DNA from: Lolium rigidum
Taxonomy: Eukaryota > Streptophyta > Magnoliopsida > Poales > Poaceae
Assembly: GCF_022539505.1 (NCBI RefSeq)
Contig: NC_061514.1
Location: forward strand, 325,421,090-325,485,089
Length of the DNA: 64,000 nt
Direction of reading: 5' to 3'
Made by a program: the position numbers and the translations under genes. Numbering within the stretch: position 1 is the first letter of the stretch; every line of letters begins with the position of its first letter. Below the pieces are notes generated by a model that saw only the letters and a program-made list of their open reading frames with translations, was not told the origin of the DNA and made no database searches. This document shows positions 3,774-63,205 of the stretch, piece by piece.

Positions 3774-7899
<4,126 letters not shown>

Positions 7900-23034: not shown

Positions 23035-23102
23035 GGATAGCTTGCATGTTGAGAGAAATCAACTTAGTGGGTTACTCCTATTTAGATATTGTAGATTATA
23101 GA
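15468..23102 (-). mobile_element. Helitron inserted in the Stowaway, with internal tandem amplification
   Basis: On the minus strand it begins TCTATAATCTACAATATC at 23102 and ends CTAG at 15471-15468, with a CCGCCGC-AA-CGCGCGG-like hairpin at about 15479-15495 just before the end. The plus-strand flanks are A (15467) and T (23103). There is no Rep/helicase. A 1.58-kb part that includes the CTAG terminus plus adjoining host DNA is repeated five times, so CTAG ends recur inside the array. Confidence 0.75.
18314..18417 (-). mobile_element. 5'-truncated SINE-like insertion in tandem copy 3
   Basis: A 104-bp insertion is flanked by a perfect 16-bp direct repeat GATGTATCTAGATACT (18298-18313 and 18418-18433), as produced by target-primed retroposition. 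On the minus strand it starts GAGTCGCGGTCTCCTC, resembling a truncated tRNA box B region, and ends TGGGTACGTCCT. It resembles the Au-type SINE dispersed in grasses, but I name that only tentatively. It is absent from the other four copies. Confidence 0.7.
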
Positions 23103-28400: not shown

Positions 28401-29157
28401 ATCTTGAGCAGCAATCCAGGGCGCAACCTACTTGCAATTTATAGCGGCAACCCATTTCAAACGGCTGGGATTACGACCTTGGCGCCCACGCTAAGCCCCC
28501 TACCCCGTGCGCGAGTTGTAGATGGCCTTAGTAGTTAAATTAATAAAGTGATTATGTGCTTTCTAGAAAATCATTCATTGAGGAACAGAGATAGTACTAC
28601 ATGATATGGTAAAGGAAGAAAAAATATTACCTTGAACATCTTGTCCATGTTCTCACCCCCAGCTCTAATCTCAACCAACCACCCCTTTGGAAGCCATTCG
28701 TGCACCTTCTGCATATTACCACGACAGAGTGATCCACACAAGGGTCATGATTATATGTAAAACAGAAATATAGAATGACTTCACCACCAGACTAAGAAAA
28801 ACATACAGCTAGTGCAGCGGACTTCTTAGATTGTATCCAATGCTCATCCATCTCAGAGAAGAGATAGTTCAGGACCTCCGCCTTCATCCTGAATCCGGAC
28901 CCTGACACGGGAGAAACGAAAAACTAGAAAGAAAAAGTGAATCACATATCTGAAAAACAGAACAGAAGAACAGAAGGAAAAAAAACATGTATAGAGAATG
29001 TTCAGGTATTAAAAGTAATCTATCTCAGATGAATACAAGGTTGGCATACCTGGTAGGGAGCGCCATCCTCACCATGTCTGACCTCCATAACCCAGCCATC
29101 GGGGAGCCAATCTGGTCGGTGCTCCACACCTTCTTCCTCGTTCTTCTTGACATTCAT
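25456..29157 (-). CDS. Triple methyl-CpG-binding-domain (MBD) protein, 340 residues
   Basis: Eight exons on the minus strand: 29157-29050, 28923-28807, 28708-28631, 27873-27748, 27650-27546, 27473-27327, 26666-26540 and 25670-25456, all GT/AG, totalling 1,023 nt with the TAA at 25458-25456. An in-frame TGA lies upstream of the ATG. Three MBDs follow each other: residues about 17-70 (WLPDGWVMEVRHG...FFVSPVSGSGFRMKAEV), 80-130 (WLPKGWLVEIRAG...FYVHPAMGVRVFSKEDV) and 154-213 (LPQGWVKEIVYRRTRTRTGI...YYTDPVTQYVFRTLKAA). A basic Ser/Thr-rich tail follows (about 228-340). The architecture resembles Arabidopsis MBD7 (three MBDs), a nuclear protein that binds methylated CpG and works with demethylation factors; only the third domain looks canonical. 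Orthology (MBD7 versus MBD13 class) is not settled. Confidence 0.9.
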
Positions 29158-40985: not shown

Positions 40986-40994
40986 TCCTGGTAG

Positions 40995-43450
40995 ATTATA
41001 ACAAATAATCAAACCTTTAGGCAACACTGTCACGCATAAAGGAAATGGTTAAATATATGAAGTGCAGTAGTGTACTTGAGGTATTTGTTTTGTTAACGGA
41101 CACGTATGTTCTGATATAGCAGGGTACTTTCTATATATACTCCTAACAGAAGAAAAGTATTAACTAGGACTACTCATGATGGAAGAACCTAAAAAAGAGA
41201 ATATGAGCAACATATGTAGGGATAAAAAAAGGTACTACCAGATATCACCGATAATGAGGAACTTGCTGCTATATGATGTCTATTTTCCCCCTTTGTGTTG
41301 ACCCTCTAGGTTTTTGTGAAATTGCATGTGTTTTAGCATCCTTCCAATTGTTTGTTAGCCTCTCGTGCAAACTCTCATGCTGTGAAAATAATCAGTTAAA
41401 TATAAGCAATATATGTAGTATTAAATATCTGCAAATAAAATTATTGTGTTAACAAAACATGGAAACCTTATTGACGTTAAATCAATCCGCTTATTTGTAA
41501 AAATATCAATTCAATATTTTTCATGTTCTTTTCAACTTATTATAAAGGAATATGTGTATCTAAGAATCATATTCTTATGTTAAACCACCACAATATAAAT
41601 TAGTCATATTATGTAGGCTCTGAGAATCCTATAGAAGTCATATATATACAATCCCAAGTGGGGCTAGGTGTGTTCTGATTCCAAGAATAGTACAAAAGAT
41701 AATTGCATGAAAAATGTGAAAAATATTTGCCTTTCACCTACTTTCATGATACCTTATTATCTGCAAATGAAATGATGAATAATGAAACATATATTCATTT
41801 TTATAAGATGTGATAGTTTTTCTAAAACATGCATGTTACCGTGGAACATTCTTTTAATTTTGCTGATTGCGAGTCAAAAAGGCGAACAAGGAAAAGACTA
41901 CATTTCATATTCTGCTAAGTCAAGCAAGTCTAAAGAAAACATAACCCTAGGAAGACGTATTATCGTAAGGATATTACTAGTATATACATAAAATGGAGAC
42001 TCAATTACCAGATCAGCAGATTTTTCAAAAGAGTACAAGTCATGGACACTTGTCTTTTGAATAAACTGACGTTTTGGACTTCCCCGGTTGCACGAAAGCT
42101 ATGTGCAGCCTTCATCATACAGAAGACATACTGGCTAACAGGATCCGTATAGTACTGCACAATAATCTTGATCAGAAGATTCAAACAATTTTTATAGAAA
42201 CAAAGGTACTCCCTCCATTTTTATATATAACTCCACAACACATTTTAAGGTAAAACTTTGACTAACAATTTGACCAACATAATATGAGTTATATGTCACC
42301 AAAAGTATAACATTGAATTCATATTTGAAAGATGCTTCCAATGATATGCTTTTGGTGTTATATAACTTATTTTTTACTGATCAAATTGTTAGTCAAAGTT
42401 TAGGCTCGAAATACTTAGTGGCCTTATATATAAAAACGCTGGGAGTAATTAGTTTCCATTGTTTTATGTATTCCGGGCCTTCCTTATTCCCTCCCTTATT
42501 TTTTTGTATACCATCTCTTTGACCCATCCTTGTGGCAACGCAGATGGGTTGAAATCCACCAAGGCTATAATCTACAATATAACAATACAAATTAGTTGGA
42601 TAATGTCAAAACATTTAAGACTTCTTAGTTATGTAGCGGAAATAGTGATGGTAAGAAATAGACACTATCTTGAGAGTTTGGGTCGCATTGTCCATATGTA
42701 TCACATTCAGTGATTTTCATTTCCTTAACATAGAGTAGTACATCTTATTTAGAGAATACACGTGCTCCCATTGCGGGGTAAACATAAAATTACGAAAAAT
42801 ATACACACAATGTTATAATGTGATAAACAATGTGAGTAAATTTTATTGTTGACACTTTTAATGTTAGTTTTTTTCAAGGGCATGTACATGCGTTATATTT
42901 CTCATATGACCCATGATTGTTATCCTAATAAAACATCTAATACTTGCTTAATTCACATCCAATCATATACACTTAATACTATGTCACATGTGGAAAGCTC
43001 CATGAACCATTGATAATCCTTCGCCACTCAGAAGGCAACATAGAAAATCAACATGCGTTGAGTTAGGAAACTACCATAGTTGTTTCGATTTGCATGCACA
43101 TGCTTCTCCTAGATTTTCAATTTGTATACTAATAATACCATGCACACCATCAAAGATGGTTTCTAATAATTTTTCATATGAATGATAAAAGTCCATTAAA
43201 GGATTGAATATTCATTCAAACAAATAGTTAATTATGAAGATATATATTCCGAAAATACTTCTCATGAAAACGCTAATGGTACTATACACTGGCACCTTAC
43301 CAAACAAAGTTTTTCGACCCTAATCGTGTGTGGAAATCCAAGGTCCAACCTATTGGCAATAGCGCCAACCCATCTTAAACGCGGTTGGGATTACGAACTT
43401 GGCGCCCACACTCAGCCCCCTACCCCTCCCTCGTGCATTATATATGACCT
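40995..43450 (-). pseudogene. Decayed second copy of the MBD gene (exons 4-7 and introns)
   Basis: It aligns with 26262-28535, introns included. Exon 7-like sequence is at about 41277-41393 with a short deletion. Exon 6-like is at about 42005-42160 with a 2-bp loss causing a frameshift; the YYTDPV-QYVF motif remains. Exon 5-like is at about 42465-42570. Exon 4-like is at about 42665-42795, with an in-frame stop after VFSK and a damaged acceptor. Exons 1-3 and 8 are absent. A MITE (42209-42445) was inserted later. It is a pseudogene of the gene at 25456-29157. Confidence 0.9.
42209..42445. mobile_element. Stowaway-like MITE in the MBD pseudogene
   Basis: The 237-bp element has ends CTCCCTCCATTTTTATATAT and, inverted, CTCCCAGCGTTTTTATATAT, with TA on both sides (42207-42208 and 42446-42447). 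Inner parts are also inverted (TTTGACTAACAATTTGA / TCAAATTGTTAGTCAAA). The intact MBD gene lacks it at the matching intron position. Confidence 0.85.
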
Positions 43451-43755
43451 TAGTAGTCTTTATACTATTAATATGAAAGTCGTGGTGGTGTCACACCTCA
43501 CATGGCATCACAATACTTCCTATTTACATATGAAATGCCACCGCTAACAAATTTCCTAAAACTCTCTCACTAAACATGCACTTACACTTATCCTAAAAAC
43601 CTTATGCCATATGTCTGCTTCCTCATCTCAAATTTTGTTCCACCTCTCTGTTCCTCCTTCCGATATTTGTGTTCCCAACCATACATCAAACAAATAGATA
43701 CCATAAAAATCTCCAACTCGGTGCATCCTCATCCCCACCTATATTGACCTTCTCA
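43451..43755. other. Short unassigned segment between the pseudogene and the composite element
   Basis: Similarity to the intact MBD locus ends after CCTTAGTAG. The next bases, TCTTTATACTATTAATATG, resemble a Helitron 5' end but are not preceded by A, and no matching CTAG end was found. The rest is AT- and C-rich DNA without a gene. Confidence 0.35.
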
Positions 43756-44210
43756 TAGTAAGGGGTTGTTTGGTAGTGGAGTATTAGTGGGGATGATCTC
43801 CTAGGGATTGGGTGAATCCCCACCCATCACCAGATTCCCATTAATCCCCATCCCCACTAATTCCTAATCCCAACTCCTAAGAACTGTCATTTGGTTGGCT
43901 GAGATTGGTGCACAATGAAAAACCAAATAAAACAATTCAAACCAACATACAATTGCAAAGATTCAGTTTTTAATACACGCGTGAACTCTGAGACATATTT
44001 GAGCTTTAGCATACAATAAAATTAAAGAGTCGCACACACGATAATACAATCTCAAGGAGTACAGGCAAACAAGCTAAAGTTGCAACATTGAACAACATCA
44101 CATGGATAGCGGCTTGGTACTCCATATTGCAAGACTGACTTTGTTTCTGATTAGCAATGATAGCATCTTAACTCAAAGTGCCCTCCGGAAACATAAATAA
44201 AGATCAGAGT
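43756..44210 (+). repeat. Left terminal inverted repeat of the composite element
   Basis: About 450 bp, inverted relative to 62760-63205. Shared landmarks are GGATTGGGTGAATCCCCAC, ATTTGGTTGGC, GTGAACTCTGAGACATATTT, ATAAAATTAAAGAGTCGCAC and AACAAAGTC. A second, direct partial copy (about 45600-45873) lies between palindromes 1 and 2. Confidence 0.8.
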
Positions 44211-44215
44211 ACATT

Positions 44216-45595
44216 GGTACTCCCAATTTTTCGAAAAGGAAATCAAAAGCTATTAACAGTTCTACCAAAGGGAATTACATTTATGACACAGAGAAATTAT
44301 GTAATGGTTTCATCTAGTGATAACCAGAACCAGGATGCTGACCAAATAGCAGGACATCAAGCACAGTCTTCACTAAAGCCTGACATTATGGCTACTTTAG
44401 CTCAACTTATGGCAAATGTGTAGGTAGCAATTTCGGCAACTAGCCAGGTACTCTTGAATGCAGATAGATCTACCATCACTTATATATGACGCATCTACAA
44501 TGGCTAACATGGAAATATGAAAAATCAAACAGTGACTTCTATCTTATTATTTGAGCAAATGGGTAATCTTCAGCCCTAAAATGACGTTAAACCTGTAATG
44601 ACTTCAAATGTACCACCGCCACCCCTCTCCCTACTCAAGCACCTAATTCTGCTATGTCATTATCGGTAGGTGGACACAGTTTGCCCACACAAATGAACCA
44701 GCAACAGTATCTATCAGAGCAGTATTATGCGCCTTAAAACAAATATGGTTTGGTAGGAACATTTATCCATTCAAACCTCCAGGCCGGCAATACTCCCCCC
44801 CCCCCGCACCAAGTCAATGTTGGTCCTATGCCAGCAAACAACCAAATGTACATGAGAGGAGAAATTTGGGTTTGTCCCCATCTAGTTATTTGCTAGCAAT
44901 GGATGAACATTGACTTGGGGCAGGGAGGGACTAGGAAATTAGTACAGCTGGCCGGGAGGTTTGAATGGCTAATTGTTCCTACCGAACCATAGTTGTTTTG
45001 AGGCGGACAATACTACTCTGGTAGATATAGTTGTTGGTTCATTCGCGTGTGCAAACTGTGTCCACCTACCGATGATGACATAGGACAATAAGGTGCTTGA
45101 GTAGAGAGTGGCTGTGACGGTGGTAGATTTGAAGCCATTACATGTTTAACGTCATTGCAGGTCTGAGAATACCCTTTTGCTCAAATAATAAGGAAGTCAC
45201 TTTGATTTTTCATATTTGAATGTTAGAAATTGTAGATGCGTCATGTATAAGTGATGATAGATCTGTCTGGATTCGACAGTACCTAACTAGTTGCCGGAAT
45301 TGTTGGCTGCAAATTTGGCATAAGTTGAGCTAAAGTAGCTATAATATCAGGTTTTAGTGAAGACTGCGCTTGATGCCCTGCTATTTGGTCAGCATCCTGG
45401 CGGTGGTTGTCATTAGAAAAAATCATTCCATAATTTCTATGTGTCGTAAACCCGTACTTTCCCTTTGGTAGAATTGTTATAGTAGCTTGTGGTTTCCTTT
45501 TAAAAAAATGGGAGTATGAATGTATTTTCTCTTAGCTTTATTTAGGGTTCGGGTGTTCACTTCGAGTTAAGATGATATCATTGCTAATCAAAAAC
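44216..45595. repeat. Palindromic unit 1 (most diverged, centre deleted)
   Basis: The left arm (about 44260-44855) and right arm (about 44868-45470) are reverse complements with mismatches. The central spacer present in other units is nearly gone. The left arm retains a coding trace DADQIAGHQAQSSLKPDIMA. Its greater divergence suggests it is the oldest unit. Confidence 0.75.
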
Positions 45596-45873
45596 AAAGT
45601 CACACACGTGTGAACTCTAAGATATATTTGGTCTTTAGCATATATACAATAAAATTAAAGAGTCACACACACGGTAACACAATCCGAAGGAGTACGTCTT
45701 GGATGTTTTGTAGCAAATGAGCTAAAGTTGCAAGAATTGAACAACATCAAATGGATAGTGGCTTCATACTCCAAACTCCAAGTCTGACTTTGTTCTTATT
45801 AGCAATGATATCATCTTAACTTGAAGTACCAGCATGAAACATAAATAAAGATCAGAGACAATACAATGGTACT

Positions 45874-47682
45874 TGAAGGAGATATGCCCTAGAGGCAATA
45901 ATAAAGTGGTTATTATTTATATCTTTATGTTTATGATAAATGTTTATATATCATGCTATAATTGTATTAACCGAAACATTAGTACATGTGTGATATGTAG
46001 ACAACAAGAAGTCCCTAGTATGCCTCTTAAACTAGCTTGTTGATTAATGGATGATTAGTTTCATAATCATGGACATTGGATGTTATTAATAACAAGGTTA
46101 TATCATTATATGAATGATGTAATGGACACACCCAATTAAGCGTAGCATAAGATCTCGTCATTAAGTTATTTGCTATAAGCTTTCGATACATAGTTACCTA
46201 GTCCTTATGACCATGAGATCATGTAAATCACTTATACCGGAAAGGTGCTTTGATTACATCAAACGCCACTGCGTAAATGGGTGGTTATAAAGGTGGGATT
46301 AAGTATCCGGAAAGTATGAGTTGAGGCATATGGATCAACAGTGGGATTTGTCCATCCCGATGACGGATAGATATACTCTGGGCCCTCTCGGTGGAATGTC
46401 GTCTAATGTCTTGCAAGCATATGAATAAGTTCATAAGAGACCACATACCATGGTACGAGTAAAGAGTACTTGTCGGGAGACGAGGTTGAACAAGGTATAG
46501 AGTGATACCGATGATCAAACCTCGGACAAGTAAAATATCGCGTGACAAAGGGAATTGGTATCGTATGTGAATGGTTCATTCGATCACTGAAGTCATCGTT
46601 GAATATGTGGGAGCCATTATGGATCTCCGGATCCCGCTATTGGTTATTGGTCGGAGTGAGTACTCAACCATGTCCGCATAGTTCACGAACCGTAGGGTGA
46701 CACACTTAAAGTTGGATGTTGAAATGGTAGATCTTGAATATGGAATGGAGTTCGAATATTTGTTCGGAGTCCCGGATGAGATCCGGACATCACGAGGAGT
46801 TCCGGAATGGTCCGGAGAATAAGATTCATATATAGGAAGTCATATTCCAAGTTTGGAAATGATCCGGTGCATTTATGGCGGGTTCTAGAAGGTTCTAGAA
46901 AAGTCCGGAAGAAATCACCATGGAAAGTAGAGTCCCGGAGGGACTCCACCTTGCATGGTCAGCCAACCCTAAAGGGGAGGAGTCCAAGGTGGACTCCCCT
47001 AGGGTGGCCGGCCAACCCCCCTCATGGAAGGGGGGAATCCCACCCCAAGTGGGATTCCCACCTTGAGTAGGTTTCCCACATATGGGAGGTTTTAGTGTTG
47101 GGGTCTTATTCGAAGACTTGGACTAGAACTCTTGGTGCTTCCACCTATATAATGAGGGGCATAGGAGAGGGGGCTGACCACTTCAAGCCTCACACACTTG
47201 GCCGCACCACCTAGGGCTGCCCTTGGCCGGCGCCCTAGCCTCCCCCTCTCTCCCCAAACCCTAGCGGTATCTCTCCTCCACCACATCCCGCACGCTTAAG
47301 CGAAGCTCCGCCGGATTTCTCCATCACCACCGACACCACGCCGTCGTCGTCTGTCGGATTCAAGAGGAGCTACTACTTCCGCTGCCCGCTGGAACGGGGA
47401 GGTGGACGTCGTCTTCATCAACAACCGAACGTGTGACCGAGTACGGAGGTGCTGCCCGTTCGTGGCGCCGAAGCGATCGTGATCAAGATCTTCTACGCGC
47501 TTTTGCAAGCGGCAAGTGAACGTCTACCGCAGCAACAAGAGCCTCATCTTGTAGGCTTTGGAATCTCTTCAAGGGTGAGACTCGATATCCCCTCGTTGCT
47601 ACCGTCTTCTAGATTGCATCTTGGCTTGGATTGCGTGTTCGCGGTAGGAAAATTTTTGTTTTCTATGCAACGTTATCCTTCA
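45874..47682 (+). repeat. 5' LTR of the copia element
   Basis: 1,809 bp, TG...CA. The 3' third has a promoter-like stretch (CACCTATATAATGAGG near 47145), probably the TATA element of the LTR promoter, followed by a GC-rich leader. Almost identical to the 3' LTR. Confidence 0.92.
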
Positions 47683-47683
47683 G

Positions 47684-47696
47684 TGGTATCAGAGCC
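47684..47696 (+). promoter_or_regulatory. Primer-binding site
   Basis: TGGTATCAGAGCC, complementary to the 3' end of initiator tRNA-Met, starts two bases after the 5' LTR. Confidence 0.85.
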
Positions 47697-50600
47697 GTGT
47701 CTATGCATAGATGGTTGCACGAGTAGAACACAATGGTTTTGTGGGCGTTGATGCTCTTGTTATCTTTAGTTGAGTACTTTGCATCTTTGTGGCATAGTGG
47801 GATGAAGCGGCCCGGACTAACTTTACATGACCGCGTTCATGAGACTTGTTCCTCGTTCGACATGCAACTTGTATTGCATAAGAGGCTTTGCGGGTGTCTG
47901 TCTCTCCTACTATAGTGAAGATTCAATTTACTCTTCTATTGACAACATTAGTATCACCGTTGTGGTTCATGTTCATAGGTAGATTAGATCTCTCTCGAAA
48001 ACCCTAAACCACGTAAAATATGCAAACCAAATTAGAGACGTCTAACTTGTTTTTGCAGGGTTTGGTGATGTGATATGGCCATAATGTGATGATGAATATG
48101 TATGAGATGATCATTATTGTATTGTGGCAACCGGCAGGAGCCTTATGGTTGTCTTTAAATTTCATGTTGAGTAGTTTTTCAAATTAGTTGTAATAGTTGC
48201 TACATGAGGTGAACAACCATGAAGACGGCGCCATGGACCTTGACGCTACACCGACGATGATGGAGATCATGCCCGAAGATGATGGAGATCATGTCCGTGC
48301 TTTGGAGATGAAGATCAAAGGCGCAAAGACAAAAGGGCCATATCATATCACATATGAACCGCATGTGATGTTAATCCTTTATGCATCTTATTTTGCTTAG
48401 ATCGCGACGATAGCATTATAAGATGATCCCTCACATTAATATCAAGATAATAAAGTGTTCTCCCCTCGTATGCACCGTTGTAACGAGTTCGTCGTTTCGA
48501 AGCATCTCGTGATGATCGGATGTGATAGATTCAACGATTCACATACAACGGGTGTAAGCCATGTTGCACACGCGGAATACTTGGGTTTGCTTGACGAGCC
48601 TAGCATGTACAGACATGGCCTCGGGACAACGGAAACCGAAAGGTTGAACACGAGTCATATGGATGATATGATCAACATGTTCACCATTGAAGCTACATCA
48701 TCTCACGTGATGATCGGTTTTGGTGTAGTGGATTTGGATCGTGTACCACTTAACAACTATGAGGGATGTTGTATTAAGTGGGAGTTCATTAGTAATTAGA
48801 TTAAAACATGAACTAATTATCATAAACATAGTCTGAGTAGTATTTTGAATTAATTTTGTAGTATTGGCATCCGTTTTCTACCATCCGCTAGTCTTGTTAT
48901 TGAGATAGAAATACTGTTAAAATCTGACAAGAAACTTTACGGATTGGTACCGTATTGTTAAAGAATCAAGAATTAATTAAGTCCTATTGGAAACTTTTAG
49001 TAAACCTCACATTATTAATTCAAAGAGCTAAGGTTTCAATTAGTACCTAAAGTTATCTTGTCTCCGTCAAACTTGAAGTTCAAATTTGTTTGAAAAGTAA
49101 GGAGCTGAAAATTTAGTTTTCAGAAATAATCAAGGTATGAGATATATGTGATATCTAAGACCTTATTGCAAGATGATAGAATATATTTTGGTGAGACTAC
49201 ATAAACTCATAAGTTTTATGGGAATGTATGAAGGTTGAAGACGCCAGGCGTCACAATCCTCCAACTATTGGGGCACTAACAATATTCGCATATCCACGAA
49301 GTTATCATCCTTAGTATGCACCGTTGCTAAGACTCGTCGTATCGAAGCATCACGTGATGATCGGGTGTTATAGATTCTACGTGTGCTTACAACGGGTGCA
49401 AGCCAGATTTGCACATGCGAATACTAAGGTTAAACTTTATGAGCCTAGCATGTACGGACATGGTCTCAAAAAGTTGTCATGAATTGATGGATAAAATTAT
49501 GAGTGAAATTGTTCATCATAGTTACTAATAAGTGAAATCTAGAACACTTGTCATATGATGATCAACTTCAAAATAAGAACCTCAAGGTTATTGGTATTAG
49601 ACCAACAAACCTAGAAGTTATTAATGTTGAAGTGTTTTTCTGAATAATGAGGAAAGCTAAAAGAAAAACTGCAAAAGATATTTTGGCAGAAAGAAAGAAA
49701 AGACTAGAAAGTCTAGCTCAGGTGTATATAAATGATATACATGTTATGGTTGTATTCCTAGTTAGGTCACACTATAAAATTCTTGGATATTATTACTATA
49801 TTGGTTGGTATGAAGTGTCATACAAAACAACGCAATACAAGAATACAATGGCCTAAGTGATCGACAAGGAATATGATAGAAATGTACGTCTGGAACAAAA
49901 TAAAGTGTTATTATGTTCGTCGTTGGCATTCTATCTAGCCCTTAGAATTTATAATAAAGAACTTAATAATTGTTATTTTGCTCTGGTCAAATGAAAACAA
50001 TGAGTTGTTCAAATTATGACATTACTCCATATACGATGGATAAGTTATTATAAATCTTAATGGTGAAACACACATACATAACATCGACGCTAAAATGCCA
50101 TAAGGCAAATGATTTGAATTCCACTTATTTATGGAACCGCCATTTAGGTCATGTTAGAAAGGATCGCATGAAGGAACTCCATGCAAATGGATTTTTGGAG
50201 TCATTCGATTTGTTGAATCGTTTGGCACTTGCAAAATCTTTTCTAAAAGGTAATGACTGAAATACCATTCATAGGCCGAAGAATTGAACGGGCAACTAAC
50301 TTAGTGAAAACATGCATAATGATATATGTGGTTCACTTGGGCATAGTTGTGTGCGGAAGATTCTTCTACTTCATGAAAACTTTCAAACAATGAATTGAGT
50401 ATATATGTGGATATATTCAATAAGGAAAAGTTTGAAACATTTGAATAGGATTCAAATAAATTTCAGCATGAAGTGGAAATCATCGTAATAGAAAAGTCAA
50501 ATATCTATGATTGGATCATGGAGGAAATATTTGAATTACAAATTTTAGCGAACATCTAAGAGAGTTATGAAATTGTTCTACAACTCACATTTCTTGGAGT

Positions 50601-52692
50601 ATCATAGTGATGATGAAGTATCCGAGAGATGTATCCAAACCTAGTTGGGTCAATGATGAGATAAAATATTAATGCCATTATATTTTTGTGGATTATGCTT
50701 TAGAGACTACCGCTTTACACTGAATAGAGCATCATCATGATCCGTTGAAATGACATCATATGAGTTATGACATGGGTATAAACCCTAATAGTCTTTTCTT
50801 AAATTTTGGTATGCATAGCATAAGTAAATAAGTTTACAACCAAAATCGGATGAATGTCTTTGTTGGTTATCCCGAGAGAATTGATTGGGAATTCTTCCCA
50901 CAATGGAGACAAAGACAAAAGTGTTTGTCAATGTTTCTTATTTCCAAGAAATTGTTTCTAGCGAAGTTTTTGAGTGGGAGGACAATAGAACTTGATAAGG
51001 TTTATGAACCTGAGCATAATGATCAGAGTAGCGCAGCATCGGAATTGGTTCCGGAAGCGGCCACGATGATCATGGCTCCTATGACTACAAAGTGTTTTAG
51101 CCATGGAGATAGAAGTACATATTGAACCTTGTAGGTATGGTTTACTTTGTGATCAAATAAATGATTTGTGGACAAAGGATTGATTTTGAACAATGATAAA
51201 CCAACTACAAGCAAAGAAGTTATGATGGGCCCTGACTCCGTTAAAATGGCCATGCACCATGAAATCCATAATAGATGAATACTTTTTGAAAGTAAATGGA
51301 TCTATAGACTTAGATGAAATATCTTTGAAGAAGCTCGACTTGTTGAAAAATTGTTTACGACAAAGTTCAAAGAGTTGACTACGATAAGATTAGATGTTCC
51401 GTAGCAATGCTTATAGTCTATGTGGATTATTCTAGTAATCACTACATATTTCTTTTATAAGATATGCTAGTAGGATGGCAAAATACATTACTTATCAGAA
51501 GTATGTATTAAAGGTGTATACAAGATACAACCAAGAGTTTTGCTGGTCCGTGGAATACTAGATAGGTATACGAACTTCAATTGGATGAAGTAAGTATTGC
51601 GGAGTTGGAATCTTCACCGGATGAAATAGTCAAAGAGTTTTTGATTTCATCGGAGACGATGAAGAGGCTTGCATTTGCAAGAAATTAAGTGGGAGCGCTA
51701 AGACACATTTATAATACTTTATGTAGGTGACATATAGTTGGTTATAAATGATGTAATTATATACTTGATTAAAAGGTTTCATTGAGAATTAACTTCAATG
51801 AAAGGATATGGACTGAAACAAATTTAGTGTCAAGATCTATGAAGATAGATTGAAACACATAAATAAGTTTAAGTCAAAGTATATATGATGGATATTGAAG
51901 TAGTTCAATATAGAAATATTAAGAAAATGTTCTTATCATGTGAAGGTTTAACAAGACTTGAGTGTATCTGACACTCAATGAGTAAAAACACATGAGTGAT
52001 TATAGATCACGAATAATATGTACACAATCAGATATCATGTGCTATAAAGTGCTATGAGCATATACCAGAATGATTCATATGATGATCATTGGACGACAGT
52101 AAGAATATCCTTGAGTACTTTAGAAGAACTAAGGATATATATATATATATTTGTATGAAGAAATGACAAACAAATCGTCTGTAAGGTGTTACACCAATAT
52201 TGGTTTTGTCACATATAAAATATAATTTCAATCTCAAATTAGACTAAGTGTTGTTTAAAAGGTAGCACAATGAGCTAGAAGTTGTCTATGCTAGATTTAG
52301 AAGAGTTCTAAATATTGTGACGGAATCTACAAAAGAAGGCAGAGTATGTCATTGTTTTGACAATGACAAAGGATGTTAAGTCAAGAGGTTCTTTGAGAAC
52401 TTGGTGTATTTTCGACAGAGTCAGAACTTTGAAGCTATATTGTGTGTGACAATATTAGTGACATATTTCAGACCGCGGAATTAAGGTTCCACCAGAAGAC
52501 CAAACATATTTAATGCCGACTCATTTGGAAATGAGTGATGCGTTGAGACGCAAATGAATTACAAAATACATACGGTTCTGAGCATGTCAGATCCGTTGAC
52601 TAAAACCTCTCTCGTGAGCGAAACATGATAAAGCACCAGAAGGCCAAGGTGTTATATCTTTACAAATGTAAACTAGATTATTGACTCTAGTG
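47697..52692 (+). pseudogene. Degenerate copia internal region (gag-pol remains)
   Basis: No long ORF survives. Remnants in the expected order are a charged Lys-rich segment near 49647, the GAG-pre-integrase motif LWNRHLGHVRKDRMKELHAN (50126-50190), a segment with LSGRTIELDKVYEPE (50970-51020), and decayed RT/RNase H traces to about 52650, with stops throughout. A 165-bp segment of the leader is duplicated (about 48460-48620 and 49312-49475). With near-identical LTRs this implies mobilisation in trans by an intact relative. Confidence 0.8.
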
Positions 52693-52704
52693 CAAGTGGG
52701 AGAC
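52693..52704 (+). promoter_or_regulatory. Polypurine tract
   Basis: CAAGTGGGAGAC immediately precedes the 3' LTR start at 52705, the position where plus-strand DNA priming occurs in LTR elements. Confidence 0.75.
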
Positions 52705-54515
52705 TGAAGGAGATATGCCCTAGAGGCAATAATAAAGTGGTTATTATTTATATCTTTATGTTTATGATAAATGTTTATATATCATGCTATAATTGTATTA
52801 ACCGAAACATTAGTACATGTGTGATATGTAGACAACAAGAAGTCCCTAGTATGCCTCTTAAACTAGCTTGTTGATTAATGGATGATTAGTTTCATAATCA
52901 TGGACATTGGATGTTATTAATAACAAGGTTATATCATTATATGAATGATGTAATGGACACACCCAATTAAGCGTAGCATAAGATCTCGTCATTAAGTTAT
53001 TTGCTATAAGCTTTCGATACATAGTTACCTAGTCCTTATGACCATGAGATCATGTAAATCACTTATACCGGAAAGGTGCTTTGATTACATCAAACGCCAC
53101 TCTGCGTAAATGGGTGGTTATAAAGGTGGGATTAAGTATCCGGAAAGTATGAGTTGAGGCATATGGATCAACGGTGGGATTTGTCCATCCCGATGACGGA
53201 TAGATATACTCCGGGCCCTCTCGGTGGAATGTCGTCTAATGTCTTGCAAGCATATGAATAAGTTCATAAGAGACCACATACCATGGTACGAGTAAAGAGT
53301 ACTTGTCGGGAGACGAGGTTGAACAAGGTATAGAGTGATACCGATGATCAAACCTCGGACAAGTAAAATATCGCGTGACAAAGGGAATTGGTATCGTATG
53401 TGAATGGTTCATTCGATCACCGAAGTCATCGTGGAATATGTGGGAGCCATTATGGATCTCCGGATCCCGCTATTGGTTATTGGTCGGAGTGAGTACTCAA
53501 CCATGTCCGCATAGTTCACGAACCGTAGGGTGACACACTTAAAGTTGGATGTTGAAATGGTAGATCTTGAATATGGAATGGAGTTCGAATATTTGTTCGG
53601 AGTCCGGATGAGATCCCGGACATCACGAGGAGTTCCGGAATGGTCCGGAGAATAAGATTCATATATAGGAAGTCATATTCCAAGTTTGGAAATGATCCGG
53701 TGCATTTATGGCGAGGTTCTAGAAGGTTCTAGAAAAGTCCGGAAGAAATCACCATGGAAAGTAGAGTCCCGGAGGGACTCCACCTTGCATGGTCAGCCAA
53801 CCCTAAAGGGGAGGAGTCCAAGGTGGACTCCCCTAGGGTGGCCGGCCAACCCCCCTCATGGAAGGGGGGAATCCCACCCCAAGTGGGATTCCCACCTTGA
53901 GTAGGTTTCCCACATATGGGAGGTTTTAGTGTTGGGGTCTTATTCGAAGACTTGGACTAGAACTCTTGGTGCTTCCACCTATATAATGAGGGGCATAGGA
54001 GAGGGGGCTGACCACTTCAAGCCTCACACACTTGGCCGCACCACCTAGGGCTGCCCTTGGCCGGCGCCCTAGCCTCCCCCTCTCTCCCCAAACCCTAGCG
54101 GTATCTCTCCTCCACCACATCCCGCACGCTTAAGCGAAGCTCCGCCGGATTTCTCCATCACCACCGACACCACGCCGTCGTGCTGTCGGATTCAAGAGGA
54201 GCTACTACTTCCGCTGCCCGCTGGAACGGGGAGGTGGACGTCGTCTTCATCAACAACCGAACGTGTGACCGAGTACGGAGGTGCTGCCCGTTCGTGGCGC
54301 CGGAAGCGATCGTGATCAAGATCTTCTACGCGCTTTTGCAAGCGGCAAGTGAACGTCTACCGCAGCAACAAGAGCCTCATCTTGTAGGCTTTGGAATCTC
54401 TTCAAGGGTGAGACTCGATATCCCCTCGTTGCTACCGTCTTCTAGATTGCATCTTGGCTTGGATTGCGTGTTCGCGGTAGGAAATTTTTTGTTTTCTATG
54501 CAACGTTATCCTTCA
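52705..54515 (+). repeat. 3' LTR of the copia element
   Basis: 1,811 bp, TG...CA, followed by the GGTACT duplication and then by the resumed left arm of palindrome 2. Confidence 0.92.
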
Positions 54516-56100
54516 GGTACTCCCAATTTTTTAAAAGGAAACCACTAACTACTAACAATTCTACCAAAGGGAAACTACATTTACGACACATAGAAATTAT
54601 GGAATGGTTAATTTCTTCTAATGACAACCACCACCAGGATGCTGACAAAATAGCAGGACATCAAGCACGGTCTTCACTAAAGCCTGATATTATGGCTACT
54701 TTAGCTCAACTTATGCCAAATGTGCAGCCCGAATTCCAGCAACTAGTTAGGTACTCTCGAATTCAGATAGATCTATCATCACTTATACATGACGCATCTA
54801 CAATTTCTAACATGAGAATATGAAAAATCAAACAGTGACTTCTATCTTAATATTTAGGTAAATGGGTAATCTTCAACCACGAAATGACGTTAAACCTGTA
54901 ACGTCTTCAAGCGTACCACCACCACGCCCACTCCTACTCAAGCACCTAATTATGCTATATCATCATTGGTAGGGCGACACAGTTTTGCCCACACGGATGA
55001 ACCGAGCAACATTATCTACCGGAAGCGGTATTATGTGCCTCCAAACAACTATCGTTTGGTAGGAACCACATTTAGCCATTCAAACCTCTAGGACAACAAT
55101 ACCAACTTCCCAATCCCTCTCCCGTCCCAAGTCAATGTTGGTCCTTTGCCAGCAAACAACCAAATGGGGGCAAACCCGAATTTCTCTTCTCAGGTGCAAC
55201 AACAACAACAAAATGTTGCATACTGGTTCTTCCCAAATTCCTAGCTCGGTAACAAAAAATAAATACATGTATTTGAAACCTAGGATTAGAAACCTAGGAT
55301 CATTCTAGCTTAGATAATGCATAATTTTTTTGTTGCTGAGCTAGGAGCTTGGGAAGAACCATAAGCAACATTTTGTGGTTGTTGTACCTGAGAAGATAAA
55401 TTTGGGTTTGACCCCATCTGGTTGTTTGGTGGCAAATGACCAACATTGACTTGGGGCAGGGGAGGGACTGTGAAGTTAGTATTGCTGCCCTGAAGGTTTA
55501 AATGGCTAACTATTCCGACTGAACCATAGTTGTATTGAGGCACATAATAATGCTATGGTAGATACTGTTGCTGGTTCACTTGCGTGGGCACACTATGTCC
55601 ACCTACCGATGATGACATAGAAGAATTAGGTTCTTGCGAAAGGGAGTAGGGGTGGAGATGGTAGATTTTAAGTCATTACATGTTTAATGTCATTTCAGGG
55701 CTGAAGATTACCCATCTACTCAAATTATAAGATAGAATTCACTGTTTGATTTTTCATATTTCCATGTTAGAAATTGTAGATGCATCATGTATAAGTGATG
55801 GATCTGTCTGGATTCGACAGTACCTAACTAGTTGCTGGAATTGTTGGCTGCAAATTTAGCATAAGTTGAGCTAAAGTAGCCATAACGTCAGGCTTTAGTG
55901 AATACTGCGCTTGATGCCCTGCTATTTGGTCAGCATCCTGGCGATGGTTCTCATTAGAAAAAACCATTCCATAATTTCTATGTGTCTTAAACCCGTACTT
56001 TCCCTTGTGGTTTCCTTTAAAAAATAGGTGTACCGATGTATATTCTCTGATCTTTATTTATGTTTTAGACGGACACTTGGAGTTAAGATGTTGTCATTGC
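54516..56100. repeat. Palindromic unit 2
   Basis: The left arm is about 54516-55252 (its outer part lies before the copia element at 45868) and the right arm about 55318-56100. The roughly 65-bp centre contains the small palindrome AAACCTAGGATTAGAAACCTAG. The arms read inward on opposite strands: plus MEWLISSNDNHHQDADKIA... and minus MPQYNYGSVGIVSHLNLQGS... Confidence 0.85.
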
Positions 56101-56102
56101 TA

Positions 56103-56407
56103 CTCCCTCCGTCCCAGTTCGCAAGGCAAAGTTTTCAAATATCTTGGCCCAAGGTGAATTCTCATTGGCTCTAAATTTGCACGTTAAAACATGCAAAAAC
56201 TTTGCCTTTCACATGCATGGAGTACTAGTGCGCGGTGGTTTCACATGCATGGAGTACTAGTGCGTGGTGGGAGATGAAAAGATGAGTGTTTGCATGCAAA
56301 AATGAATTAGTTTACTCCCACATTAAATGCAAAATGTGCCTAGGAGGTGAGGGATTTTGGGACAAATATTTTTTGGGAATTTGCCTTGCGAACTGGGACG
56401 GAGGGTG
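56103..56407. mobile_element. Stowaway-like MITE between palindromes 2 and 3
   Basis: The 305-bp element has ends CTCCCTCCGTCCCAGTTCGC and the inverted GCGAACTGGGACGGAGGG, with TA on each side (56101-56102 and 56408-56409). It sits exactly in the GCTAATAGAGG junction that is uninterrupted between later units. Inside, CACATGCATGGAGTACTAGT is duplicated in tandem (about 56210-56265). Confidence 0.9.
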
Positions 56408-56411
56408 TAAT

Positions 56412-57995
56412 AGAGGAGGGCCAAGCTCAACGCAACTCAAACAGTTACGACACATAGAAATTATGGAATGGTTAATTTCTTCTAATGACAACCACCACCA
56501 GGATGCTGAAAAAATAGCAGGACATCAAGCACGGTCTTCACTAAAGCCTGATATTATGGCTACTTTAGCTCAACTTATGCCAAATGTGCAGCCGAATTCC
56601 AGCAACTAGTTAGGTACTCTCGAATTCAGATAGATCTATCATCACTTATACATGACGCATCTACAATTTCTAACATGAGAATATGAAAAATCAAACAGTG
56701 ACTTCTATCTTAATATTTAGGTAAATGGGTAATCTTCAACCCTGAAATGACGTTAAACCTGTAACGACTTCAAGCGTACCACCACCACGCCCACTCCTAC
56801 TCAAGCACCTAATTATGCTATATCATCATTGGTAGGGCGACATAGTTTTGCCCACACAGATGAACCAGCAACATTATCTACCAGAGCAGTATTATGTGCC
56901 TCCAAACAACTATCGTTTGGTAGGAACCACATTTAGCCATTCAAACCACTAGGACAACAATACCAACTTCCCAATCCCTCTCTCGTCCCAAGTCAATGTT
57001 GGTCCTTTGCCAGCAAACAACCAAATGGGGGCAAACCCGAATTTCTCTTCTCAGGTGCAACAACAACAACAAAATGTTGCATCTGGTTCTTCCCAAATTC
57101 CTAGCTCGGTAACAAAAAATAAATACATGTATTTGAAACCTAGGATTAGAAACCTAGGATCATTCTAGCTTAGATAATGCATAATTTTTTTGTTGCTGAG
57201 CTAGGAGCTTGGGAAGAACCATAAGCAACATTTTGTTGTTGTTGTTGTGCCTGAGAAGATAAATTTGGGTTTGACCCCATCTGGTTGTTTGGTGGCAAAT
57301 GACCAACATTGACTTGGGGCGGGGGAGGGACTGTGAAGTTAGTATTGCTGCCCTGAAGGTTTAAATGGCTAACTATTCCGACTGAACCATAGTTGTATTG
57401 AGGCACATAATAATGCTATGGTAGATACTGTTGCTGGTTCACTTGCGTGGGCACACTATGTCCACCTACCGATGATGACATAGAAGAATTAGGTTCTTGC
57501 GAAAGGGAGTAGGGGTGGAGATGGTAGATTTTAAGTCATTACATGTTTAATGTCATTTCAGGGCTGAAGATTACCCATCTGCTCAAATTATAAGATAGAA
57601 TTCACTGTTTGATTTTTCATATTTCCATGTTAGAAATTGTAGATGCGTCATGTATAATTGATGATAGATCTGTCTGGATTCGACAGTACCTAACTAGTTG
57701 CTGGAATTGTTGGCTGCAAATTTGGCATAAGTTGAGCTAAAGTAGCCATAACGTCAGGCTTTAGTGAAGACTGCGCTTGATGTCCTGCTATTTGGTCAGC
57801 ATCCTGGCGATGGTTCTCATTAGAAAAAAACCATTCCATAATTTCTATGTGTCTTAAACCCGTACTTTCCCTTGGTAGAACTGTTATAGTAGCTTGTGGT
57901 TTCCTTTAAAAAATTAGGTGTACCGATGTATATTCTCTGATCTTTATTTACGTTTTAGACGGACACTTCCGAATTAAGATGTTGTCATTGCTAAT
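56412..57995. repeat. Palindromic unit 3 (1,584 bp)
   Basis: It starts AGAGG(A)GGGCCAAGCTCAAC and ends GTTGTCATTGCTAAT. The left arm runs to about 57107, the right arm from about 57172. The minus-strand ORF in the right arm (57406-57170) matches those in units 2 and 4-6 almost exactly. Confidence 0.88.
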
Positions 57996-59578
57996 AGAGG
58001 AAGGCCAAGCTCAACGCAACTCAAACATTTACGACACATAGAAATTATGGAATGGTTAATTTCTTCTAATGACAACCACCACCGGGATGCTTGACAAAAT
58101 AGCGAGGACATCAAGCACGGTCTTCACTAAAGCCTGATATTATGGCTACTTTAGCTCAACTTATGCCAAATGTGCAGCCCGAATTCCAGCAACTAGTTAG
58201 GTACTCTCGAATTCAGATAGATCTATCATCACTTATACATGACGCATCTACAATTTCTAACATGAGAATATGAAAAATCAAACAGTGACTTCTATCTTAA
58301 TATTTAGGTAAATGGGTAATCTTCAACCCTGAAATGACGTTAAACCTGTAACGACTTCAAGCGTACCACCACCACGCCCACTCCTACTCAAGCACCTAAT
58401 TATGCTATATCATCATTGGTAGGGCGACACAGTTTTGCCCACACAGATGAACCAGCAACATTATCTACCAGAGCAGTATTATGTGCCTCCAAACAACTAT
58501 CGTTTGGTAGGAACCACATTTAGCCATTCAAACCTCTAGGACAACAATACCAACTTCCCAATCCCTCTCCCGCCCCAAGTCAATGTTGGTCCTTTGCCAG
58601 CAAACAACCAAATGGGCGCAAACCCGAATTTCTCTTCTCAGGTGCAACAACAACAACAAAATGTTGCATCTGGTTCTTCCCAAATTCCTAGCTCGGTAAC
58701 AAAAAATAAATACATGTATTTGAAACCTAGGATTAGAAACCTAGGATCATTCTAGCTTAGATAATGCATAATTTTTTTGTTGCTGAGCTAGGAGCTTGGG
58801 AAGAACCATAAGCAACATTTTGTTGTTGTTGTGCCTGAGAAGATAAATTTGGGTTTGACCCCATCTGGTTGTTTGGTGGCAAATGACCAACATTGACTTG
58901 GGGCGGGGGAGGGACTGTGAAGTTACTATTGCTGCCCTGAAGGTTTAAATGGCTAACTATTCCGACTGAACCATAGTTGTATTGAGGCACATAATAATGC
59001 TATGGTAGATACTGTTGCTGGTTCACTTGCGTGGGCACACTATGTCCACCTACCGATGATGACATAGAAGAATTAGGTTCTTGCGAAAGGGAGTAGGGGT
59101 GGAGATGGTAGATTTTAAGTCATTACATGTTTAATGTCATTTCAGGGCTGAAGATTACCCATCTGCTCAAATTATAAGATAGAATTCACCGTTTGATTTT
59201 TCATATTTCCATGTTAGAAATTGTAGATGCGTCATGTATAAGTGATGATAGATCTGTCTGGATTCGACAGTACCTAACTAGTTGCTGGAATTGTTGGCTG
59301 CAAATTTGGCATAAGTTGAGCTAAAGTAGCCATAACGTCAGGCTTTAGTGAAGACTGCGCTTGATGTCCTGCTATTTGGTCAGCATCCTGGCGATGGTTC
59401 TCATTAGAAAAAACCATTCCATAATTTCTATGTGTCTTAAACCCGTACTTTCCCTTGGTAGAACTGTTATAGTAGCTTGTGGTTTCCTTTAAAAAATTAG
59501 GTGTACCGATGTATATTCTCTGATCTTTATTTACGTTTTAGACGGACACTTCCGAATTAAGATGTTGTCATTGCTAAT
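57996..59578. repeat. Palindromic unit 4 (1,583 bp)
   Basis: Same structure as unit 3. The left-arm frame is broken by one-base insertions near 58087 and 58105; the right-arm frame (58990-58757) is open. Confidence 0.88.
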
Positions 59579-61263
59579 AGAGGAAGGCCAAGCTCAACGC
59601 AACTCAAACATTTACGACACATAGAAATTATGGAATGGTTAATTTCTTCTAATGACAACCACCACCAGGATGCTGACAAAATAGCAGGACATCAAGCACG
59701 GTCTTCACTAAAGCCTGATATTATGGCTACTTTAGCTCAACTTATGCCAAATGTGCAGCCCGAATTCCAGCAACTAGTTAGGTACTCTCGAATTCAGATA
59801 GATCTATCATCACTTATACATGACGCATCTACAATTTCTAACATGAGAATATGAAAAATCAAACAGTGACTTCTATCTTAATATTTAGGTAAATGGGTAA
59901 TCTTCAACCCTGAAATGACGTTAAACCTGTAACGACTTCAAGCGTACCACCACCACGCCCACTCCTACTCAAGCACCTAATTATGCTACTCCCTCCGGTT
60001 CATATTAATTGACTCTAATATGGATGTATCTAGACACATTTTAGTTCTAGATACATCCATATTGAAGTCAATTAATATGAATCGGAGGGAGTATATCATC
60101 ATTGGTAGGGCGACACAGTTTTGCCCACACAGATGAACCAGCAACATTATCTACCAGAGCAGTATTATGTGCCTCCAAACAACTATCGTTTGGTAGGAAC
60201 CACATTTAGCTATTCAAACCTCTAGGACAACAATACCAACTTCCCAATCCCTCTCCCGTCCTAAGTCAATGTTGGTCCTTTGCCAGCAAACAACCAAATG
60301 GGGGCAAACCCGAATTTCTCTTCTCAGGTGCAACAACAACAACAAAATGTTGCATCTGGTTCTTCCCAAATTCCTAGCTCGGTAACAAAAAATAAATACA
60401 TGTATTTGAAACCTAGGATTAGAAACCTAGGATCATTCTAGCTTAGATAATGCATAATTTTTTTTTGCTGAGCTAGGAGCTTGGGAAGAACCATAAGCAA
60501 CATTTTGTTGTTGTTGTACCTGAGAAGATAAATTTGGGTTTGACCCCATCTGGTTGTTTGGTGGCAAATGAACAACATTGACTTGGGGCGGGGGAGGGAC
60601 TGTGAAGTTACTATTGCTGCCCTGAAGGTTTAAATGGCTAACTATTCCGACTGAACCATAGTTGTATTGAGGCACATAATAATGCTATGGTAGATACTGT
60701 TGCTGGTTCACTTGCCTGGGCACACTATGTCCACCTACCGATGATGACATAGAAGAATTAGGTTCTTGCGAAATGGAGTAGGGGTGGAGATGGTAGATTT
60801 TAAGTCATTACATGTTTAATGTCATTTCAGGGCTGAAGATTACCCATCTGCTCAAATTATAAGATAGAATTCACTGTTTGATTTTTCATATTTTCATGTT
60901 AGAAATTGTAGATGCGTCATGTATAAGTGATGATAGATCTGTCTGGATTCGACAGTACGTAACTAGTTGCTGGAATTGTTGGCTGCAAATTTGGCATAAG
61001 TTGAGCTAAAGTAGCCATAACGTCAGGCTTTAGTGAAGACTGCGCTTGATGTCCTGCTATTTGGTCAGCATCCTGGCGATGGTTCTCATTAGAAAAAACC
61101 ATTCCATAATTTCTATGTGTCTTAAACCCGTACTTTCCCTTGGTAGAACTGTTATAGTAGCTTGTGGTTTCCTTTAAAAAATTAGGTGTACCGATGTATA
61201 TTCTCTGATCTTTTTTTATGTTTTAGACGGACACTTCCGAGTTAAGATGTTGTCATTGCTAAT
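59579..61263. repeat. Palindromic unit 5 (1,685 bp, with a MITE)
   Basis: Subtracting the 103-bp MITE and its TA gives 1,580 bp. The left-arm ORF starts MEWLISSNDNHHQDADKIAG (59630); in the right arm the minus-strand ORFs are 60675-60433 and 61102-60917. Confidence 0.88.
59989..60091. mobile_element. Stowaway MITE in palindrome 5
   Basis: This 103-bp near-perfect hairpin has ends CTCCCTCCGGTTCATATTAA and the inverted CTCCCTCCGATTCATATTAA. TA flanks it at 59987-59988 and 60092-60093. The empty site GCTATATCATC is present in units 2, 3, 4 and 6. Confidence 0.95.
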
Positions 61264-62840
61264 AGAGGAAGGCCAAGCTCAACGCAACTCAAACATTTAC
61301 GACACATAGAAATTATGGAATGGTTAATTTCTTTCAATGACAACCACCACCAGGATGCTGACAAAATAGCAGGACATCAAGCACGGTCTTCACTAAAGCC
61401 TGATATTATGGCTACTTTAGCTCAACTTATGCCAAATGTGTAGCCCGAATTCCAGCAACTAGTTAGGTACTCTCGAATTCAGATAGATCTATCATCACTT
61501 ATACATGACGCATCTACAATTTCTAACATGAGAATATGAAAAATCAAACAGTGACTTCTATCTTAATATTTAGGTAAATGGGTAATCTTCAACCCTGAAA
61601 TGACGTTAAACCTGTAACGACTTCAAGCGTACCACCACCCCGCCCACTCCTACTCAAGCACCTAATTATGCTATATCATCATTGGTAGGGCGACACAGTT
61701 TTGCCCACACAGATGAACCAGCAACATTATCTAACAGAGCAGTATTATGTGCCTCCAAACAACTATCGTTTGGTAGGAACCACATTTAGCCATTCAAACC
61801 TCTAGGACAACAATACCAACTTCCCAATCCCTCTCCCGTCCCAAGTCAATGTTGGTCCTTTGCCAGCAAACAACCAAATGGGGGCAAACCCGAATTTCTC
61901 TTCTCGAGTGCAACAACAACAACAAAATGTTGCATCTGGTTCTTCCCAAATTCCTAGCTCGGTAACAAAAAATAAATACATGTATTTGAAACCTAGGATT
62001 AGAAACCTAGGATCATTCTAGCTTAGATAATGCATAATTTTTTTGTTGCTGAGCTAGGAGCTTGGGAAGAACCATAAGCAACATTTTGTTGTTGCTGTAC
62101 CTGAGAAGATAAATTTGGGTTTGACCCCATCTGGTTGTTTGGTGGCAAATGACCAACATTGACTTGGGGCGGGGGAGGGACTGTGAAGTTACTATTGCTG
62201 CCCTGAAGGTTTAAATGGCTAACTATTCCGACTGAACCATAGTTGTATTGAGGCACATAATAATGCTATGGTAGATACTGTTGCTGGTTCACTTGCGTGG
62301 GCACACTATGTCCACCTACCGATGATGACATAGAAGAATTAGGTTCTTGCGAAAGGGAGTAGGGGTGGAGATGGTAGATTTTAAGTCATTACATGTTTAA
62401 TGTCATTTCAGGGCTGAAGATTACCCATCTGCTCAAATTATAAGATAGAATTCACTGTTTGATTTTTCATATTTCCATGTTAGAAATTGTAGATGCGTCA
62501 TGTATAAGTGATGATAGATCTGTCTGGATTCGACAATACCTAACTAGTTGCTGGAATTGTTGGCTGCAAATTTGGCATAAGTTGAGCTAAAGTAGCCATA
62601 ACGTCAGGCGTTAGTGAAGACTGCACTTGATGCCCTGCTATTTGGTCAGCATCCTGGCGATGGTTCTCATTAGAAAAAAACCATTCCATAATTTCTATGT
62701 GTCTTAAACCCGTACTTTCCCTTGGTAGTACTGTTATAGTAGCTTGTGGTTTCCTTTAAAAAATTAGGTGTACCGATGTATATTCTCTGATCTTTATTTA
62801 TGTTTTAGACAGACACTTCGAGTTAAGATGTTGTCATTGC
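61264..62840. repeat. Palindromic unit 6
   Basis: Left arm about 61264-61968, right arm about 62030-62840, running without a break into the right terminal inverted repeat (CTAATTACAAACAAAGTC). This is the only unit whose right arm still joins an intact element end. Confidence 0.85.
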
Positions 62841-63205
62841 TAATTACAAACAAAGTCAGTCTTGCAATTTAGAGTGCCAAGCCACTATCCTCTTGATGTC
62901 GTTAAATTCTTGCAACTTTAGCTCATTTGCTTCAGACTGTGTTACCGTGTGTGCGACTCTTTAATTTTATTGTATGCTAAATCTCAAATATGTCTTAGAG
63001 TTCACACATGTATTAAAAATTGGATCTTTGGTACTATATGTTGGTTTGCACTGTTATATTCGGTTTTCCCTTGTGTACCAATCCATGCCAACCAAATGGC
63101 AGTTTTAGGAGTATGGATTAGGGATTAGTGGGGATTCACCCAATCCCCTAAGGAATTATCCCACTAATCCCCACTAATACACCACTACCAAACAAGCCCT
63201 TACTA
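62760..63205 (-). repeat. Right terminal inverted repeat of the composite element
   Basis: Reverse complement of the left end with about 85 percent identity by eye. It ends GGATTGGGTGAATCCCCAC-like sequence (inverted), then CCAAACAAGCCCTTACTA at 63188-63205. Confidence 0.8.

Follow-up and report, generated by a model that had tools for sequence, protein, structure and literature searches.

Six tandem palindromes with a captured FPA fragment in a transposon-like element of Lolium rigidum

Introduction

How might six long palindromes come to stand in a row along one stretch of a grass chromosome, and are they put to any use? This question is raised by 64,000 nucleotides of the genome of Lolium rigidum (assembly GCF_022539505.1, contig NC_061514.1, here C7, positions 325421090-325485089), the whole of which is described as the window and to which positions below refer unless a contig is named. 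In an initial annotation, made from the letters alone, part of this window was viewed as a transposon-borne array of six large palindromes, each with a piece of some captured gene in both of its arms. It was suggested there as well that a transcript through any one of these units would fold into a long hairpin, as with natural silencing loci. The analysis described here names that gene as FPA. The array is real and well resolved, its architecture is unusual though each step toward it has precedent, and its evolution is close to neutral. Quite probably this is a neutral Pack-type element which has turned into a tandem palindrome array, and which has done so via the steps set out below.

Structure of the Array

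A single element extends from 43762 to 63200 of the window and contains six palindromes, as seen with both self-comparison and arm alignment. The earlier count of six palindromic units is thus borne out, as is their inclusion within one element. The limits first given for that element (43756-63205) have to be moved inward, however, leaving outside of it a TAA which adjoins the left terminus (43759-43761, plus strand; by reading, a possible target site of form TWA) and a TTA which adjoins the right terminus (63201-63203, plus strand, also by reading). Each unit matches its own reverse complement across approximately 1.4 kb, which places these palindromes far beyond chance. Arms had been put at approximately 700 bp and their centre at 65 bp; the arms are instead approximately 570-690 bp, with a centre of approximately 55 bp in units 2-6 that is nearly absent in unit 1.

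The element begins with a left terminal inverted repeat and its subterminal region (43762-44276, plus strand), of which the outer approximately 220 bp represents a dispersed transposable-element family. In every unit the left arm (plus strand) then carries the FPA fragment in sense orientation while the right arm (minus strand) carries it in antisense. For unit 1 these arms are found at 44277-44848 and 44849-45450, with alignment of the latter starting at 44847, and the left subterminal region recurs internally at 45604-45873 (plus strand) as the start of unit 2. A long terminal repeat (LTR) retrotransposon of 8.6 kb is inserted between units 1 and 2 (45874-54515, plus strand), with LTRs at 45874-47682 and 52705-54515 that are 99.2% identical and with GGTACT to either side; this retrotransposon is young and has no reading frame of 150 codons within it. 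The arms of unit 2 follow at 54577-55270 and 55326-55991, those of unit 3 at 56441-57130 and 57186-57858, those of unit 4 at 58025-58717 and 58773-59441, those of unit 5 at 59608-60403 and 60457-61126, and those of unit 6 at 61293-61983 and 62039-62708. The element is then terminated by the right subterminal region and terminal inverted repeat (62709-63200, minus strand).

Found at the junctions between units 2 and 3, 3 and 4, 4 and 5, and 5 and 6 is a 32-bp filler (56412-56443, 57996-58027, 59579-59610, and 61264-61295, respectively, all plus strand). Two miniature inverted-repeat transposable elements (MITEs), which we take to be Stowaway-like, are present as well, both with TA to either side. 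One is in the unit 2/3 junction (56103-56407), and the other, of 103 bp, interrupts the left arm of unit 5 (59989-60091). With these MITEs subtracted, unit-to-unit spacing is 1580-1587 bp for units 3 to 6 and approximately 1556 bp from unit 2 to unit 3.

Left and right arms of the same unit are 84.3-86.3% identical, in keeping with the difference of roughly 15% that had been estimated by eye. The near-identity noted among same-side arms of units 2-6 holds too, at 98-99% (pairwise, 98.1-99.3% for left arms and 98.1-99.6% for right arms). Unit 1, by comparison, shows merely 86-87% identity to the same side of units 2-6. The terminal regions of the element, left versus right, are 85.3% identical over 475 ungapped sites.

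Long palindromes are difficult to assemble, so it may be asked whether these six are instead an assembly artefact of a repetitive region, especially as three 100-N gaps are present elsewhere in the 224 kb examined. The window itself is without N, however, its arms are approximately 14% diverged, and its units display private substitutions and indels along with their TA-flanked MITEs. An artefact is for these reasons very improbable. To this may be added that single palindromes of the same kind are found at six further loci.

Origin of the Captured Fragment

Both arms of all six units, in opposite orientations, match the C-terminal part of FPA. A protein search using the arm peptide matched six proteins (best E 9.5e-44), with identities of 49-58%. 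Two from Lolium rigidum and one from L. perenne bear the name flowering time control protein FPA or FPA-like, the other three being records without a name from Avena, Festuca, and Alopecurus. No Pfam family was found for any of the three arm-peptide pieces. The Gln/Asn/Pro-rich protein fragment that had been reported from both arms is, as read from the alignments, copied at the DNA level from the FPA C-terminal region and has kept an intron. What does not stand is any reading of its MEWLI methionine as a start, as this is not the start of FPA, with the frame instead being that of FPA's NYGMVSSNDNHHQDAD. Capture at the DNA level is indicated because the arms carry a 111-bp counterpart of an FPA intron, one which in the gene starts with GT and ends with AG.

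How many times was FPA captured? The same two stretches of FPA, of 63 bp and approximately 89 bp, are missing from all 12 arms of the window, and one capture therefore is the simplest reading. Consensus rows for the other loci align with the window arms and have no additional segment at these gaps. Independent capture by left and right arms was also considered and can be ruled out, as both sides are without the same two gene stretches.

A search of the 2.44-Gb assembly for the parent gene, as the initial annotation had proposed, located FPA, among the matches listed, at a single position of C5 and also on C178. The latter is a small contig, the 10-kb FPA stretch of which is 97.5% identical to the C5 copy and probably represents the other haplotype. 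Remaining matches from this search fall within the first 461 residues of the query, the start of which is not FPA. As a separate observation, barley and Aegilops FPA records (P0026, P0027) are without a Pro/Gln/Asn-rich segment of approximately 95 residues that is kept both in the other aligned Pooideae records and in the captured fragment.

Transposon Ends

The element possesses imperfect terminal inverted repeats, GGGGTTGTTTGGTAGTGG at left and, on the other strand, GGGCTTGTTTGGTAGTGG at right. The outer approximately 220 bp of its left end has at least 42 matches scattered across C1-C7 plus a small contig, a lower bound given that 40 of 83 candidates were scored, and 11 of these 42 are the ends of FPA-bearing loci themselves. 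Both of the features by which a Pack-type element may be recognized, i.e., ends in common with a dispersed family and a captured fragment of a host gene, thus are found together. So too are those of a foldback element, that is, inverted repeats that make up nearly the whole of the element along with internal tandem repetition. The 8-10 bp target-site duplication of Mutator-kind foldback elements, on the other hand, is not seen, with TCATAGTAA before the element and TTACTAGGA after it.

In seven single copies of the end family that were fetched, the three bases preceding the end are TAA in three, TTA in three, and TGA in one. For most PIF elements, TTA or TAA target sites are given (PMC8903248), and the TAA or TTA before six of the seven copies fits this. 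The element presumably is, then, non-autonomous, Pack-type, and PIF/Harbinger-like as to superfamily. Beyond the FPA loci, the end family is seen also at L044 (C7:279988001-279996000) in three direct tandem repeats of approximately 3.04 kb that are approximately 97% identical, which is another recent tandem amplification involving that family.

Spread and Amplification

FPA-bearing palindromes were found, among the matches listed, on C7 alone (at least 30 matches). Beyond the window these include six loci with one palindrome each, three near 307.3 Mb and three at 325.54-325.61 Mb, some of them truncated at one end or interrupted by an assembly gap. Flanking sequence too is common to these loci and the window, to one side or to both (reaching approximately 1.8 kb on the left and approximately 130 bp on the right), and this identifies them as segmental copies. 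The description of the array as transposon-borne therefore is correct insofar as its ends are those of a dispersed transposon family, but its copies point to segmental duplication and local amplification and not to repeated transposition.

That palindrome formation came first and amplification later, as had been proposed, is supported by the window tree along with an approximately unbiased (AU) test, in which an initial split between left and right sides obtains 0.979 versus 0.022 and 0.022 for the alternatives. The arm trees of the other loci support this order as well, left and right alike grouping L011 with L015 and L012 with a pair consisting of L013 and L014, with L016 outside; the position of L016 has a weak support of 35 in the left-arm tree and of 90 in the right-arm tree. 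Terminal regions and FPA piece probably were inverted-duplicated together, since both differ about equally between sides.

The same 32-bp filler is present at all four of the junctions from 2/3 to 5/6. When up to four substitutions were allowed, neither the rest of the 224 kb nor L001-L036 contained it (a match at L004 being the window's own place). One private filler at four of four junctions argues for a single founding junction that was then amplified, probably by unequal crossing-over. These junctions also bear on whether single palindromes might have transposed repeatedly or become nested into one another. Ends belonging to a dispersed family are what such a history could appeal to, but the junctions are without full ends, possessing the common filler instead, and the other loci share the window's flanks on one or both sides. 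Repeated or nested transposition is, given these observations, scarcely credible.

The grass substitution rate is 1.3e-8. At that rate the split between sides would date to approximately 6 million years (My) ago and that between units 1 and 4 to 5.4 My, units 2-6 would have diverged 0.5 My ago, and the retrotransposon would be 0.3 My old; all of these dates are rough.

The steps from gene to array probably were as follows. A non-autonomous PIF/Harbinger-like element would have copied, at the DNA level, a piece of FPA comprising the end of its C-terminal Pro/Gln/Asn-rich region and one intron. The resulting half-element would then have been inverted-duplicated, so that the FPA piece came to lie within the terminal repeats of a palindrome. 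That palindrome, along with its flanks, would have been copied by segmental duplication on one chromosome, with further tandem duplication occurring at the window locus. There alone, one junction would afterward have been amplified, with unequal crossing-over the likeliest means, to bring the number of units to six, and a retrotransposon as well as a pair of MITEs would have inserted. The order of the oldest of these steps is one that we infer.

Can the Array Silence FPA?

A different perspective is that the array is a natural hairpin silencing locus. Read-through transcripts, that is, would fold and be diced to RNAs of 21-24 nt, which would lower FPA expression in the manner of wheat Iw1. Upon folding in silico, the plus strand of each unit is predicted to form a very strong hairpin (-928 to -1018 kcal/mol, versus -366 to -430 when each was shuffled four times), and to this extent the earlier expectation of a hairpin-forming transcript is upheld. 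Perfectly paired runs of at least 21 bases cover 136-342 bases per unit. Over aligned sites, identity between the arms and FPA is 82-86%; for Iw1 and its target, a value above 80% is reported (PMC8005961). Seventeen 21-mers of FPA, one of them intronic, match the array exactly. Over the FPA 3-prime region, 128 of 1280 21-mers are within one mismatch of the array and 371 of 1280 are within three, whereas in a control stretch at the other end of FPA none of 1280 are below four mismatches. Given these exact or near matches, small interfering RNAs able to touch FPA are possible.

The sequence was also examined for signs that the hairpin is used, and none were seen. Exact FPA 21-mers are in significant excess in none of 24 arms, unit 1 having the two lowest p values, at 0.0675 and 0.085. 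Maintenance of pairing is not seen either: among the six other loci, own-arm identity averages 85.90% versus 85.85% for cross-clade comparison (22 pairs), and in units 2-6 own-arm and cross-unit identity both are 85.52%. An Rfam scan of the window at gathering thresholds gave no match, and a tRNA scan of the window found no gene. Nor are arms consistently conserved against flanks. Across six overlapping locus pairs, which offer few sites and are not independent, the comparison is mixed and displays no consistent slowing of arms. For L012-L013, arms are 96.0 and 95.3% identical and flanks 96.3 and 97.1%; for L013-L014, arms 98.0 and 96.1% and flanks 95.8 and 98.6% (the latter over 74 sites); and for L012-L014, arms 96.8 and 95.2% and flanks 92.9 and 95.9% (the latter over 73 sites). 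L011-L015 has arms at 95.1 and 93.3% with one flank at 91.3%, L013-L015 has arms at 89.6 and 90.0% with one flank at 91.1%, and L013-L016 has arms at 89.9 and 88.4% with flanks at 87.9 and 90.1%.

Constraint on coding was considered separately. Sites that vary number 47 of 165 at the first codon position, 40 of 165 at the second, and 43 of 164 at the third, versus 18 of 111 in the intron. Coding constraint on the arms can thus be ruled out, as codon positions vary about equally and changes in them are not rarer than in the intron. Changes of C to T and G to A are commoner at CG (4 of 20) and CHG (12 of 54) than at CHH (22 of 211), a difference that would fit with DNA methylation.

Use of the hairpin therefore is not supported by what can be read from codon positions, from arms versus flanks, from pairing, or from 21-mer counts. 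Silencing of FPA by the array would be possible, and is without selective support; as a natural silencing locus of the Iw1 kind, the array is an unlikely candidate. Any small RNAs that are made presumably would be incidental to the palindrome and would mostly silence the locus itself.

Alternatively, the element itself might be what benefits. In this case lowered FPA would relieve transposon silencing, following the logic of rice miR820 versus OsDRM2. FPA has been reported to silence transposons in Arabidopsis (PMC2444039), though a later study reports no widespread FPA role in transposon silencing (PMC3814327), and precedent exists for a transposon-borne small RNA directed against a silencing gene (PMC3459959). 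Counter-defence of this sort is nevertheless highly unlikely, as matching sites are not in excess, pairing is not maintained in the array, and FPA palindromes are found, among the matches listed, on one chromosome alone. Equally far-fetched is its boldest version, in which the array would be a transposon-encoded RNA-interference weapon acting to reduce FPA (which regulates RNA 3-prime ends and which some have reported to silence transposons), with six palindromes having raised the dose, and with polymorphism in flowering time and silencing in ryegrass.

A neutral Pack-type origin continues to be the reading that we favour, and several observations weigh against it. The TAA and TTA which flank the element at left and right are not identical, TCA precedes the end at L035, TGA precedes it in the three L044 tandem copies, and in the seven fetched single copies a second end was not found within 1 kb. 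No paired duplication was seen, and because of these discrepancies both the target-site duplication and the superfamily are putative. An AU test gives 0.941 to the window standing apart from the other loci, versus 0.080 and 0.068 for the alternatives, so that the palindromes may descend from one event or from more than one, with the window's split from the other loci either preceding or following palindrome formation. Arm identity somewhat exceeds that of the longer measured flank in three of the six locus pairs. Moreover, no other segment is as well matched in any of the six pairs as the approximately 150-bp centre between the arms of the single palindromes (93.2-98.7%), a likeness that simple neutrality does not predict. 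Lastly, recent or incidental small-RNA activity would be compatible with sequence that looks neutral.

Comparison with Known Systems

Maize Mu killer reportedly is an inverted repeat of a transposon piece that is able to give a long hairpin. Wheat Iw1 is similarly a gene-derived inverted repeat with that ability, but is reported to make small RNAs and to lower its source gene (PMC8005961), whereas the array described here is known from sequence and displays no sign of selection. The CACTA-borne miR820 shares with the array the placement, on a transposon, of sequence complementary to a silencing-linked gene, OsDRM2; for miR820, however, co-evolution with the target has been reported (PMC3459959), while the array shows no excess of matches.

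In terms of structure, Pack-TYPE elements, including those of Harbinger-PIF, are described as non-autonomous elements with terminal inverted repeats and a captured piece of a coding gene (PMC8903248), as seen here. The difference is that here the fragment lies inside of the inverted repeat, is present as two opposed copies, and has been tandem-amplified. The foldback element Tetris of Drosophila virilis also has very long inverted repeats and internal tandem amplification, for which unequal crossing-over has been proposed (PMC4079207). With Tetris, though, it is 220-bp transposable-element repeats that expand inside of the terminal inverted repeat, while here the repeat unit is an entire palindrome with its host gene fragment. 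Tetris differs further in having 8-10 bp target sites, and most foldback elements are described in the same source as being of Mutator kind (PMC4079207). In a limited search, one without subscription journals, no earlier title or abstract was found that describes a host gene fragment within inverted terminal repeats amplified as tandem palindromes.

Other Features of the Window

An unrelated direct tandem array is present at 15315-23035, consisting of approximately five copies of approximately 1.4-1.6 kb that are mostly 92-97% identical, in which no frame of 150 codons was found. A duplicated segment of approximately 2.3 kb is found at 26261-28535 and 40992-43457 (82-83% identical), the latter copy of which flanks the element on its left and is met again next to other FPA palindromes. 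At 7501-8034, on the minus strand, is a first exon resembling that of prostaglandin E synthase 2, with 83% identity to an annotated Lolium rigidum protein and 91% to one from Festuca glaucescens. This perhaps is a diverged paralogue or instead another gene fragment.

Significance

Within one genome the locus displays a succession of steps, in which a gene piece was captured along with an intron and duplicated in inverted orientation, and the palindrome so formed was spread segmentally and amplified in tandem. Palindromes such as these are a proposed raw material for hairpin silencing loci and also for young microRNAs. In Arabidopsis, FPA governs both flowering and RNA 3-prime ends, and the flowering time of ryegrass is of agronomic relevance. 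Seven related loci, along with what is apparently a single parent gene, would provide a natural test of whether such palindromes come to silence their source gene or instead decay.

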